A stretch of 12,301 bases of DNA from Candidatus Helarchaeota archaeon (GTDB lineage Archaea > Asgardarchaeota > Lokiarchaeia > Helarchaeales > HEL-GB-A): contig JABXJU010000125.1 of NCBI GenBank assembly GCA_013375405.1, positions 1 through 12,301 of the forward strand, given 5' to 3'. Position 1 is the first letter of the stretch, and every line of letters starts with the position of its first letter. Shown here in pieces: positions 6,108-12,301 of this stretch. A program made the position numbers and the translations under genes. The notes below the pieces were generated by a model that did no database searches, was not told the origin of the DNA, and saw only the letters and a program-made list of their open reading frames with translations.

Positions 6108-6698
6108 TTAAAAGACGTATTTTCCGTAATCATTAGCTACCTTACGGCGTTCAATATTTCTGCATGTTGGACATTGTAATCGGTGGCCTTCGAGTTTTAG
6201 CACGTCACCACATTCTGAACAAGTGGCTAATATTACTCCAAGGTTAGGAGTAGAGGTATGAATATGGAAGGGTATTACTTCATCGTTTGTAATAAGAGCT
6301 CGTATAAGATCTCCAGTTTTGAAAGCATCTGAGAGGGAATCAAGGTACCCTTTCGTAACTTGAGAGATATGAATCATACCTTCAAAATCGGTTGTCGGAT
6401 GAAATCCGCGTATGTTAGTAATGTCAGCGATAGCCATCTGTTTTCGGACCATACTAATGCGACCAATAACCACATCTCCTGTTTTAGGTAAGGAAGGTTT
6501 ATCTTGTCTTGGGACAATATATACCTTTTTTTCTCGTTGATTTATGTGCAAACTGCCAGGTATTGTCGCATAAATTACTCCATTCTCTTCGTAAGTTCCT
6601 GGTCCGGGCATGTACATTTCTATTACACCGATTTTTTGCCCAGGAAGGACAAAATCGCCTACTTTTATTTCATTTTTGCTTTCTACCAATTTTTTCAT
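6108..6698 (-). CDS. csl4: Exosome complex cap subunit Csl4 (S1 and zinc-ribbon)
   Basis: 196 residues. The N-terminal domain has the family opening VGDFVLPGQKIGVIE (13-27) and GPGTYEENGVIYAT. The S1 domain is at about 72-155 (GDVVIGRISMVRKQMAIADI...FEGMIHISQV). The C-terminal zinc ribbon has C160-x2-C163 and C176-x2-C179. Csl4 caps the archaeal RNA exosome over the Rrp41-Rrp42 ring and recruits substrates and DnaG. The frame could start at a TTG at 6701, but the adjacent ATG at 6698 is preferred. The other exosome genes lie 4 kb away on the other strand (rrp4, rrp41). A methyltransferase gene lies 77 nt upstream on the same strand. Confidence 0.93.
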   Translation of the reverse strand: MKKLVESKNEIKVGDFVLPGQKIGVIEMYMPGPGTYEENGVIYATIPGSLHINQREKKVYIVPRQDKPSLPKTGDVVIGRISMVRKQMAIADITNIRGFHPTTDFEGMIHISQVTKGYLDSLSDAFKTGDLIRALITNDEVIPFHIHTSTPNLGVILATCSECGDVLKLEGHRLQCPTCRNIERRKVANDYGKYVF

Positions 6699-6775
6699 CA
6701 ACTAGTCTTGCTTTTTTGTATCTTCTAGATTAAATCTTTATCCTATTTTAAGTCCATATCTTGTTTTTAATTTTT

Positions 6776-9339: not shown

Positions 9340-10065
9340 ATGTTTGCTCCACCGGGTCTTGGTTATGATAGAGCTATAACAATATTTTCCCCAGATGGCA
9401 GACTTTTTCAAGTTGAGTATGCAATTGAGGCGGTTCGAAGAGGAACAACTGCAATTGGAATTAGATGTAAAGATGGAGTTGTATTAGCAGTTGAAAAAAG
9501 AGTATTAAATTTACAAGAACCTGAATCGGTTGAAAAGATTTTTGATATTGATGCTCACGTTGGAGCTGCCATTGCGGGATTGACTGCGGATGCACGAGTT
9601 TTGATTGATAATGCTAGAATTCAGTCACAAGTTAACAGACTTTATTATAATGAAGCAATAAGCATCCCAATGTTAACAAAAAAAATCTGTGATTTAAAGC
9701 AATTATACACGCAACACGCAGGAGTTCGTCCATTTGGAGTTTCATTATTAGTTGCAGGAGTTGATGATGCTCCGAAATTGTTTATGACAGATCCGTCTGG
9801 TGCGTTTTGGGGTTATCGGGCTCAAGCTATTGGGTCAGGTGCCCAAACGGTCCGTGAAGAACTAGAAAACGAGTATGACGAAAGCAAATCAATAGATGAA
9901 ATCATCGTAATAGCTCTGAAGGCATTGAAAAAGGTAATCGAGGCCGATTTAGATCCGACAAAAGCTGAAATTGCAATCATTAAAACGGATACCAAAAAAT
10001 TTGAACGCCTTTCTCTTAAAGAAATGGAGAATTATATCAATCAGGTTAATGATAGCGGCACGTGA
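9340..10065 (+). CDS. psmA: 20S proteasome alpha subunit
   Basis: 241 residues, normal length. It forms the outer rings of the archaeal 20S proteasome and gates substrate entry. The N-terminal gate motif Y9-D10-R11 is followed by the alpha-subunit signature AITIFSPDGRLFQVEYAIEAV (12-32). The pocket that binds the C-terminal HbYX tails of PAN or Cdc48-type ATPases is intact: K66, G80 and L81. GVRPFGVSLLVAG and GSGAQ follow, as in other alpha subunits. There is no N-terminal catalytic threonine, as expected. Start ATG 9340 has a strong GAGGTG 5 nt upstream (9329-9334). It is the first gene of the psmA-SBDS-rrp4-rrp41 cluster. Confidence 0.96.
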   Translation: MFAPPGLGYDRAITIFSPDGRLFQVEYAIEAVRRGTTAIGIRCKDGVVLAVEKRVLNLQEPESVEKIFDIDAHVGAAIAGLTADARVLIDNARIQSQVNRLYYNEAISIPMLTKKICDLKQLYTQHAGVRPFGVSLLVAGVDDAPKLFMTDPSGAFWGYRAQAIGSGAQTVREELENEYDESKSIDEIIVIALKALKKVIEADLDPTKAEIAIIKTDTKKFERLSLKEMENYINQVNDSGT

Positions 10066-10070
10066 AATGA

Positions 10071-10787
10071 ATGGTAGGTATGCGCGGGAGAGCGCGAGTA
10101 GACATCGGCGATGCAGTCAGGGCGAGATATGAAACAGACGGAGAACGATTCGAAATCCTAGTAAAGCCAGAATTGGCGTGGGATTTCCGTGATGGGAAAG
10201 AAATAGATATACGAGACATATTAGTTGGATACATTATTTTTGAAGACGCGCTAAGAGGAAAAAAAGCAACGGATGAATCAATTCAAAATGTTTTTGGTAA
10301 TGTTGATACCATAGACATTGCTAAGCAAATCCTACTTGAAGGAGAAATTCAGCTTACTACAGAACAAAGACGGAAAATGGTTGAAGAAAAACGAAAGCAA
10401 GTAGTTACCTACATAGCCCAAAACGCAATTAATCCACAGACCGGACTTCCGCACCCACCTCCTCGAATTGAACGCGCTTTAGAAGAAATCAAAGTGTCTA
10501 TTGATCCTTGGGAAAATGTAGAAGCTCAAGTGAAAACTATTGTTAAGGATTTAGAACCAATAATTCCCATACGATTAGAGAAAATAACATTTGCCATAAA
10601 AGTGCCTGGGAAATATCAGGCGAAATCCTATCAAATAATAATACGAATAGGAACGATCACCAAGGATGAATGGCAACCAGACGGAAATTGGATTGCGATT
10701 TTAGAAATGGCAGCAGGCTTACAGCCAAAATTACTTGACCAGTTAAAAAAACTTACAAAAGGTCGTTTAGAAGTTAAAAAACTTTAA
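10071..10787 (+). CDS. sdo1: Ribosome maturation protein SBDS (Sdo1 homologue)
   Basis: 238 residues, full length. SBDS proteins work with an EF-2-like GTPase in late maturation of the large ribosomal subunit. The FYSH domain is at about 10-95 ([34 protein letters not shown], with the I-x-x-V-F-G-N-V-D element). A helical domain at about 98-168 contains [43 protein letters not shown], and a C-terminal ferredoxin-like domain follows. It begins 5 nt after psmA. ATG 10071 is used here, but ATG 10080 (MRGRARV...) is equally possible since neither has a clear Shine-Dalgarno; translational coupling to psmA is likely. Confidence 0.94.
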
Positions 10788-10822: not shown

Positions 10823-11548
10823 ATGAGTATATTTTTTGAGAAGAAAAAAATTGTAGTCCCCGGAGAAAACCTTGCCGAAGGGAAATATAGGGCAGGTTTC
10901 GGCACTTATAAGGATAAGGGGTTGATTAAAGCATCGATCATAGGATTGCCTGAACTTAGAAATAATTATATTACAGTAATCCCCCTTCAGGGAGCGTATA
11001 TATCAAAATAATTGATGACGTAAATCCCTAAAGTGGGAGATCTTGTAATTGGTAAGATAATAAATACCACTATAGTATCTTGGAAAATTGACATTAATTC
11101 TGCGTATACGGCAACACTTCATGCATCTACCGTTTTAGATCGATCTTTTAATCCATTGAAAGATGATATTCGAAGACATTTTGAAGTAGGAGACATAATA
11201 GCTGCAGAAATAACTGCTTTTAATCGTACAAGAGATCCAGTATTATCCTTAAAAGGAAGGGGATTAGGGAAATTAAGAAGAGGTCGGATAATAGAAATTA
11301 TTCCGGCAAAAGTTCCCCGATTAATTGGGAGAAAGGGTTCAATGATTAACCTGATAAAAAATGAAACAAATTGTAGGTTGATAATTGGACAAAATGGGCG
11401 AGTATGGATGAGTGGAAAAACACTCGAAATTGAACTGTTAATTGAAAGATTGATTCGTAAAATAGAGAAGGAAGCCCATACATCTGGTTTAACAGATAGA
11501 GTGAAGGAATTAATTCAAGAAGAAATGAAAAATCTTGAGGTGAGTTAA
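10823..11548 (+). CDS. rrp4: Exosome cap subunit Rrp4, interrupted by a 24-nt BHB intron
   Basis: Read without splicing, the frame stops at TAA 11009-11011 and again at TAA 11021-11023, leaving a 62-residue N-terminal piece and a separate 3' piece. Removing 11000-11023 joins exon 1 (10823-10999, residues 1-59) to exon 2 (11024-11548) in phase 0 and yields 233 residues, the normal Rrp4 length. The junction reads VIPLQGAY|IPKVGDLVIGKI, the standard Rrp4 linker into the S1 domain. The N-terminal domain (KIVVPGENLAEGKYRAGFGTY) comes first, then S1 at about 62-135, then a KH domain with the G-R-K-G loop (RLIGRKGSMINLI) and a helical C-terminus. Rrp4 caps the Rrp41-Rrp42 ring and favours poly(A)-rich RNA. 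It abuts rrp41 directly (stop 11548, ATG 11549). Without splicing, exon 2 could only start at GTG 11033, which has no Shine-Dalgarno. Confidence 0.9.
10980..11038 (+). other. Bulge-helix-bulge (BHB) splicing element spanning the rrp4 intron
   Basis: Outer exon helix: 10989-10993 pairs with 11025-11029 (AGGGA/TCCCT). It continues past one mismatch as 10985-10987 with 11031-11033, and past a second mismatch as 10980-10983 with 11035-11038. A 3-nt bulge AAA lies at 11022-11024 on the 3' side. The central 4-bp helix is 10994-10997 (GCGT) with 11018-11021 (ACGT, one G-U). A 3-nt bulge ATA lies at 10998-11000 on the 5' side. The inner helix is 11001-11006 (TATCAA) with 11012-11017 (TTGATG, one G-U), closed by a 5-nt loop. 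This is the canonical symmetric 3-4-3 substrate of archaeal splicing endonuclease. Confidence 0.88.
11000..11023 (+). other. Inferred 24-nt tRNA-type intron in rrp4 mRNA
   Basis: Cutting both 3-nt bulges after their second base (10999|11000 and 11023|11024) releases exactly 24 nt containing both in-frame TAA codons. Nucleotides 11000 and 11024 are both A, so shifting the excised window by one base gives the same product. The intron lies between Tyr59 and Ile60 in phase 0. Confidence 0.85.
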
Positions 11549-12301
11549 ATGGCATTGATAAAATTTGAACCTCCAGAGAGATTAATAGATAAAAATGGAT
11601 TGAGGATGGATAAAAGAAAATTTAATGATTTAAGACCTGTTTCCTTCAAATTAGGTATTCTACCAAATTGTGATGGCTCTGCTTATGTCGAAATGGGAGG
11701 AAATAAAATAGTAGTAGGTGTTTATGGTCCAAGAAAAGTACAACCACGACATATAGCACATCCTAATGAGATGGTTATTCGTACTTTATACCGAATGGCA
11801 ACTTTTTCTGTAGATGAAAGAAAATCACCAGCACCCAGTCGAAGAGAAGTGGAATTATCAATGGTAATTCGCAATGCATTAATCCCATCAGTTTTTATTA
11901 ATTATTATCCGAAAACTTTGATAGATGTATCTATTCAAGTTTTGGCTGCAGACGGAGGGACAAGGTGTGCTTGTATTAATGCAGCATCATTAGCCATTGC
12001 TGATGCTGGAATTGCACAGAGAGATCTTGTTTCTGCAGTTGCAGTAGGAAAAATTAATGGGAAAATTGTACTTGATTTGAGTGATGTTGAAGATAAAGAG
12101 GGGGAAGCAGATTTGCCTATAGCCATTATGCCACAAAGTAATAAAATAACACTACTTCAATTCGACGGAAAAATGACCAAAGATGAATTTGTAGAAGCAA
12201 TGAACTTGGGATTAGAAGGAATTAAGAAGATCTATAAGCTTCAACAAGAGGCTATCAGAGCCAAATTTATTGAAATTCCGGAAAAAAAAGAGGAACAACC
12301 T
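11549..12301 (+). CDS. rrp41: Exosome catalytic subunit Rrp41 (3' end off window)
   Basis: 251 codons are visible without a stop. It is an RNase PH-fold phosphorolytic exoribonuclease that forms the hexameric ring with Rrp42. The N-terminus (LRMDKRKFNDLRPVSFKLGIL) and AYVEMGGNKIVVGVYGPRKV are typical. R98-R99 in APSRREVELS bind RNA and phosphate, and D188 in EGEADLPIAIMP is the catalytic aspartate, so the enzyme should be active. ATG 11549 follows the rrp4 stop with no gap and has GAGGTG 6 nt upstream inside rrp4. The charged tail (PEKKEEQP) suggests that only a few residues are missing. rrp42 would be expected next in the usual archaeal gene order. Confidence 0.95.
   Translation, partial: MALIKFEPPERLIDKNGLRMDKRKFNDLRPVSFKLGILPNCDGSAYVEMGGNKIVVGVYGPRKVQPRHIAHPNEMVIRTLYRMATFSVDERKSPAPSRREVELSMVIRNALIPSVFINYYPKTLIDVSIQVLAADGGTRCACINAASLAIADAGIAQRDLVSAVAVGKINGKIVLDLSDVEDKEGEADLPIAIMPQSNKITLLQFDGKMTKDEFVEAMNLGLEGIKKIYKLQQEAIRAKFIEIPEKKEEQP

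Follow-up and report, generated by a model that had tools for sequence, protein, structure and literature searches.

A predicted bulge-helix-bulge intron in the rrp4 exosome gene of Helarchaeota

As read from the sequence, the rrp4 gene in the window (the whole 12,301-nucleotide stretch of Candidatus Helarchaeota archaeon DNA analysed here) is broken on the + strand at positions 11000-11023, at the border of the N-terminal and S1 domains. We predict that this insert is a bulge-helix-bulge (BHB) intron that is very probably excised by EndA, with the exons likely joined by RtcB. EndA would cut each of the two bulges between the second and third nucleotide, RtcB would ligate the rrp4 exons, and the spliced mRNA would be translated as one Rrp4 of 233 aa. 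An exosome cap subunit would then rely on EndA and a ligase for its expression. This is a well-supported prediction, by which rrp4 would be, after cbf5 and independently of it, the second archaeal protein gene with an intron. Introns of this kind are known; as far as the literature was searched, the host gene, its archaeal group and the history of gain and loss traced here are new.

The insert is 24 nt long (ATA TCA AAA TAA TTG ATG ACG TAA), with TAT (10997-10999) on its 5' side and ATC CCT AAA GTG on its 3' side. The initial annotation had described a 24-nt insert with two in-frame TAA codons at the rrp4 linker, and its coordinates are exact in the sequence. The parts of the gene are as follows.

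10823..10999, + strand: rrp4 exon 1, 59 codons, MSIFFEKKK...LQGAY; N-terminal domain, Pfam ECR1_N/ECR1_N_2
11000..11023, + strand: predicted BHB intron, 24 nt, with in-frame TAA at 11009-11011 and 11021-11023
11024..11548, + strand: rrp4 exon 2, IPKVGDLVIG... to the stop TAA; S1 and KH domains (Pfam RRP4_S1, KH_6)

Unspliced, rrp4 consists of two ORFs, one running to ...LQGAYISK and a stop codon ending at 11011, the other starting from GTG at 11033. The N-terminal piece (P0121) is matched by Pfam PF22625 with an E value of 5.2e-12. Removal of the insert yields MSIFFEKKK...LQGAY|IPKVGDLVIG..., a protein of 233 residues, in which Pfam places the N-terminal domain at residues 9-56 and S1 from residue 59 onward; thus, the insert sits on the domain border. 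Excision at the standard bulge positions rejoins GAYIPKVGDLVIG in frame. When the phase was tested, a cut after the second bulge nucleotide gave the in-phase join GAY|IPKVGDLVIG, as the initial annotation had proposed for the canonical bulge positions, and the joined sequences of the window and of its relative Hel_GB_A (locus L001) agree.

The surrounding genes in the window are listed below.

6108-6701, - strand: Csl4-like exosome subunit (Pfam ECR1_N and EXOSC1), some 4 kb away from rrp4
9340..10065, + strand: proteasome subunit alpha (Pfam PF00227, E 3.7e-57), upstream of rrp4 in the same gene string
10071..10787, + strand: ORF directly 5' of rrp4, likely the SBDS ribosome-maturation protein, judging by position
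11549..12301, + strand: RNase PH-type exosome core subunit (Pfam RNase_PH, E 5.6e-34), starting right after rrp4 and open at the window end; presumably Rrp41, judging by position

At the other end of the window, positions 3-1943 on the - strand hold a 647-aa ORF that leaves the window and has no Pfam match at E 0.001.

We folded the region with RNAfold. The BHB was both the minimum free energy and the centroid structure in the window, and had two 3-nt bulges on opposite strands, a 4-bp helix between them and helices on both sides. The elements are as follows.

10989..10993, + strand: outer helix, 5' strand AGGGA, 5 bp with 11025-11029 (RNAfold)
10994..10997, + strand: central 4-bp helix, 5' strand GCGU, with one G-U pair (RNAfold)
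10998..11000, + strand: 5' bulge AUA, predicted EndA cut at 10999/11000
11001..11017, + strand: inner hairpin of 6 bp (11001-11006/11012-11017, one G-U) with a 5-nt loop at 11007-11011
11018..11021, + strand: central 4-bp helix, 3' strand ACGU, GCGU in L001 (RNAfold)
11022..11024, + strand: 3' bulge AAA, predicted EndA cut at 11023/11024
11025..11029, + strand: outer helix, 3' strand UCCCU (RNAfold)

Positions 10980-11040 folded at -21.7 kcal/mol with a z-score of -5.09, a value equalled by 0/200 shuffles, and the bare 41-nt motif at -11.4 (z -3.83), equalled by one shuffle in 200. This agrees with the canonical order claimed in the initial annotation, i.e. outer helix, 3-nt bulge, 4-bp helix, 3-nt bulge and hairpin. 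According to the accessible sections of PMC2738675, cutting takes place between the second and third bulge residue; applied to the bulges of the window, this rule puts the cuts exactly at 10999/11000 and 11023/11024.

A BHB motif alone proves little, and strict BHB motifs are not rare. With introns of up to 150 nt permitted, the window has four motifs (5/4/5 bp) on the + strand and one on the - strand. When introns were limited to 12-60 nt with at most three G-U pairs, one motif was found on the + strand of the window, versus a mean of 0.4 and a maximum of 3 in 60 shuffles. On both strands of 225,534 bases (the window together with L001 and with 20 stretches from a relative) there are 16 strict BHB motifs, and only that of rrp4 restores a frame, counting interrupted frames with 50 or more codons on both sides. 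With the insert position held fixed, a full BHB arose at the join, or in one of the two registers equivalent to it, in 1 of 400,000 shuffles of 104 nt, and in 5 of 400,000 when only the insert was shuffled.

Two other identities of the insert were considered and rejected. Group I and group II self-splicing introns and inteins need far more than 24-25 nt, and the insert is too small for any of them. Nor is it the cbf5 intron itself, as the host gene is rrp4; the two are alike in kind and are different introns.

Intron DNA came from two genomes, the window and L001 of Helarchaeota Hel_GB_A (SUPS01000269.1; genome G001), and the other cases described below were read from protein fragments. A scan of genome contigs for the rrp4 locus returned 14 loci. 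L001 carries 25 nt at the same rrp4 site (1917-1941), which shifts the frame, and reading then meets a stop. L001 retains the outer and central helices, with U-G in place of the central U-A pair of the window. The interior of its insert is unlike that of the window, the inner helix is absent and the 5' bulge is unclosed, giving a relaxed motif; the canonical form claimed in the initial annotation thus holds for the window and fails in Hel_GB_A. The bare 42 nt of L001 fold weakly (z -1.64, with 17/200 shuffles as good), and with longer flanks the z-score is -4.77. In L002 (Helarchaeota Meg19_1012_Bin_504) the insert is absent and rrp4 reads through the join point. A comparison with relatives at this site, which the initial annotation had suggested as a check, shows an insert of 25 nt in L001 and none in L002.

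We then compared the coding sequences of the window and L001. For exon 1, dN was 0.169 and dS 1.46; for the first 160 codons of exon 2, dN was 0.132 and dS 1.03. With dN well under dS in both exons, both halves of rrp4 are under purifying selection. The two sequences are identical at 14 of the last 15 bases of exon 1 and at the first 18 of exon 2, versus 72-77% identity over the remaining exon sequence, so the bases flanking the splice point are unusually conserved. The IPK codons 5' of the GTG are retained in both insert-bearing DNA sequences.

Rrp4 was matched, in some cases partially, in 78 of the 83 genomes of the class. Only in Hel_GB_A was the gene broken by a TAA at the intron site among these 78 matches, most of which were assessed solely from the length of the open frame and the number of stops, with five odd ones viewed more closely. 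On closer viewing, rrp4 runs on across the site in G083, G054 and G019; the site is unreadable in G005 and the contig of G082 stops short of it, and neither of these was judged for the intron. The Rrp4 match at L205 (G083:C485; 43% identity) has one TGA flagged and an alignment unbroken across the intron site, and hence its TGA lies elsewhere or at the match edge. When 227 genomes of the phylum were searched with the intron-region DNA, eight matches were obtained, of which only that of Hel_GB_A spans the insert.

A protein search with the C-terminal ORF gave 1,605 matches, of which the best 120 were taken. Among these best 120 were 30 split C-terminal Rrp4 pieces, from at most 28 loci, since P0002/P0003 and P0012/P0014 have equal contig sizes, are near-identical but for the first letter, and look like one locus each. 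The called start lies at or beside the V of PKVGD in 19 pieces (168-180 aa, that of the window included), at MKDDIR in eight (126-127 aa), and elsewhere in three. Judged by P0020, an intact Rrp4, MKDDIR is 44 residues into exon 2, and the calls of 126-127 residues presumably reflect an exon 2 without a usable start near its beginning. For P0051-P0054, P0056-P0058 and P0070, gene prediction leaves the last 126-127 residues of Rrp4.

Searches with the N-terminal part gave 37 matches, of which 24 belong to the split clade, and three of the other 13 were read. These three, P0132, P0146 and P0147, lie outside the split clade and continue through IPK. Each of the 24 clade pieces reaches its stop 2-10 residues past GAY, with tails that vary in length and sequence. 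Five of the tails end in VNP before the stop, and that of P0140, read by eye, in VNS. Both endings are exon 2 in the wrong frame, so that these six pieces imply a 25-nt intron; in P0126, one of the five, the tail is identical to that of L001. The other 18 pieces end earlier, as expected with a stop inside the insert.

Twelve pairs of N- and C-terminal pieces match in the size of their longest contig (29829, 2611, 914, 141671, 3004, 29707, 8160, 1450, 50852, 71270, 12980 and 1759), and each pair was therefore taken as sharing one contig. One pair has the close locus tags HWN66_15080 and HWN66_15085. The initial annotation expected automated annotation to split the gene, and this is what we saw: the 168-aa C-terminal pieces P0002 and P0012 are named Rrp4, and the N-terminal pieces P0122 and P0126 'hypothetical protein'.

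The tree was built from 53 of the 120 proteins, omitting P0046 and P0090 (short, yet uninterrupted at the join), P0047-P0050, P0055, P0059-P0069 and P0071-P0120. The 30 split pieces and the intact P0020 form one clade (100/98), within which P0020, reading GAYIPKAGD, is the sister of the split P0070 (100/98). Compared with solved archaeal Rrp4 structures, P0020 matches over nearly its full length (best 3l7z/2je6, E 5.7e-51). The split and intact states require two changes on the tree, and one intron gain plus one precise loss is the simplest reading. We infer a single gain at the base of a Helarchaeota subclade, followed by drift of the intron interior and at least one precise loss.

The break could instead mark a genuine division of rrp4 into two genes, whose products, a peptide of the N-terminal domain and an S1-KH protein begun at the GTG of PKVGD, would assemble as two chains. 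The break does lie between two domains, and the 19 of 30 C-terminal pieces called from the V of PKVGD or beside it indicate that a second start is often possible. Still, we regard such a division as improbable. The eight pieces that start at MKDDIR would lose much of S1, both DNA sequences preserve the IPK codons that precede the GTG, and an intact protein with the exact join is nested in the split clade. In addition, the N-terminal tails differ and reach their stop in varied ways, and a BHB lying precisely where the exons join would have to be put down to coincidence.

Recoding, in which translation would skip the 24-25 nt or continue past the stops with the hairpin as a stimulator, is a very improbable account, even with a strong hairpin right after the last exon-1 codon. 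Readthrough cannot work with a 25-nt insert, as carried by L001 and implied by the six tails. For a ribosome hop, the take-off codon TAT or TAC is a poor match to the TAA triplet before the landing codon, and the fold has BHB geometry rather than that of a generic hairpin. That the break is an artefact of sequencing or assembly, or that the gene has decayed, is scarcely credible: both insert-bearing DNA sequences are from metagenome assemblies, or look so, but the same break recurs in many predictions from differently sized contigs (19 pieces, 168-180 aa), both rrp4 halves are under purifying selection, and the neighbourhood is a regular gene string in which an RNase PH exosome gene adjoins rrp4.

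We compared the predicted rrp4 intron with known systems. The accessible sections of PMC7714728 give cbf5 as the sole BHB intron reported in archaeal mRNA as of 2020; the initial annotation likewise mentions cbf5 as the known protein-gene case. As of 2009, there were predictions of introns in further protein genes, but these were unconfirmed (PMC2738675, accessible sections). In the partly accessible literature searched, which leaves most subscription journals and bioRxiv uncovered, we found no report of a BHB intron in rrp4 or in any Asgard mRNA. In the accessible text of PMC12397907 (2025), the terms mRNA, protein-coding, Asgard and cbf5 matched in the reference list only, and in that of PMC13149111 (2026), cbf5 and Asgard are absent.

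By the account in the same sections of PMC2738675, the cbf5 intron of Sulfolobales and Desulfurococcales is likewise short and in a protein gene (16-44 bp, versus 24-25 nt in rrp4), and its cuts are also predicted between the second and third bulge residue. Most species have unconventional cbf5 motifs, as in the relaxed rrp4 motif of Hel_GB_A. The flanking pairing of the cbf5 intron is kept while the interior varies, as in rrp4; its gain and loss are lineage-specific, as they seem to be in rrp4; and the EndA of its hosts is hetero-oligomeric (PMC2738675, accessible sections), as that of Helarchaeota may be. Splicing is demonstrated for cbf5, whereas it is predicted for rrp4 (PMC2738675, same sections). 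Cbf5 is a pseudouridine synthase, whereas rrp4 encodes an exosome cap subunit and its case is in Asgard. Given the other gene and the other archaeal group, the rrp4 intron would be a gain independent of that of cbf5.

The geometry is the same as that of the canonical and relaxed BHB introns of archaeal tRNA, and the relaxed form in Hel_GB_A resembles motifs removed efficiently only by (alpha-beta)2 and epsilon2 enzymes (PMC6379350, accessible sections). Unlike tRNA introns, that of rrp4 lies in a precursor with no tRNA body for EndA recognition. In Haloferax, the BHB sites in the 5'-UTR of HVO_1309 are cut by EndA, so that here too an mRNA is processed by the splicing endonuclease, but these sites lie in an untranslated leader and no coding sequence is rejoined (PMC7714728, accessible sections). 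Putative 12-bp introns in protein genes of an archaeal virus are likewise short inserts, but consist of 12-bp units, with splicing undemonstrated according to the accessible sections of PMC2738675.

If rrp4 is indeed spliced, mRNA introns removed by the tRNA enzymes arose more than once, and rrp4 is a second, independent case in a core RNA-machinery gene, in Asgard, the group held nearest to eukaryotes. Rrp4 would also be misannotated in many such genomes. Since the intron is present, drifts and has apparently been lost precisely within one clade, ideas on how archaeal mRNAs gain and lose introns can be put to the test.

We also considered that the rrp4 intron may act as a switch, by which the tRNA-splicing capacity of an Asgard cell sets the amount of complete Rrp4 and hence of capped exosome. 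Unspliced mRNA would yield a short N-terminal peptide and, where the GTG is usable, an S1-KH protein that could not dock on the exosome ring, and if cutting were not followed by ligation, the exosome core gene downstream would become detached. We consider this role unlikely; if true, RNA processing and RNA decay would be coupled via one mRNA intron.

A wider scan looked for further BHB introns in protein genes. Permissive settings gave too many matches for use. Scanning L001 and 100 stretches of the Hel_GB_A genome (1,972,638 strand-bases, counting both strands) for 4/4/4-bp motifs with introns of 12-80 nt gave 854 motifs, nine of them ORF-restoring, with settings that are blind to relaxed motifs and miss the rrp4 intron of Hel_GB_A itself. 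The nine candidates were judged by eye. L139, L147 and L171 look like gene ends abutting another frame or gene, the frames in L131, L132, L142 and L197 do not resemble coding sequence, and at the two candidates in L200 the bases are read through without a stop in another frame; all were rejected. Over about 0.98 Mb of Hel_GB_A, the scan thus yielded no credible strict BHB intron in another protein gene. Likewise, the TruB-domain (cbf5-type) gene held no stop in any of the four Helarchaeota-type genomes searched.

As for the enzymes that would splice the predicted rrp4 intron, a member of the tRNA_int_endo family (EndA) and RtcB were each found in all four related genomes. Three of the four (G002, G003 and G004) have two EndA paralogues. 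Read by eye, one of these has a catalytic set of the Y...H...K type, which we take to be the EndA catalytic motif, and the other lacks it. In Hel_GB_A, where the intron is seen, the structural-type EndA alone was found and the catalytic paralogue was not, perhaps because this metagenome-assembled genome is incomplete. From their sequences, the two paralogues fit the (alpha-beta)2 kind. Relaxed motifs are efficiently removed only by (alpha-beta)2 and epsilon2 enzymes, one (alpha-beta)2 enzyme being constrained, according to the accessible sections of PMC6379350.

The tRNA genes of Hel_GB_A suggest that tRNA splicing is probably busy in this lineage. Among the tRNA matches above the cut-off, 17 of 23 span at least 90 nt, and of the 19 distinct tRNA genes among those listed, ARAGORN gave 12 an intron, these introns being tool calls counted without regard to BHB motifs within them. 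Several of the tRNA loci L066-L095 seem to bear extra variable-arm sequence, as if they held more than one intron.
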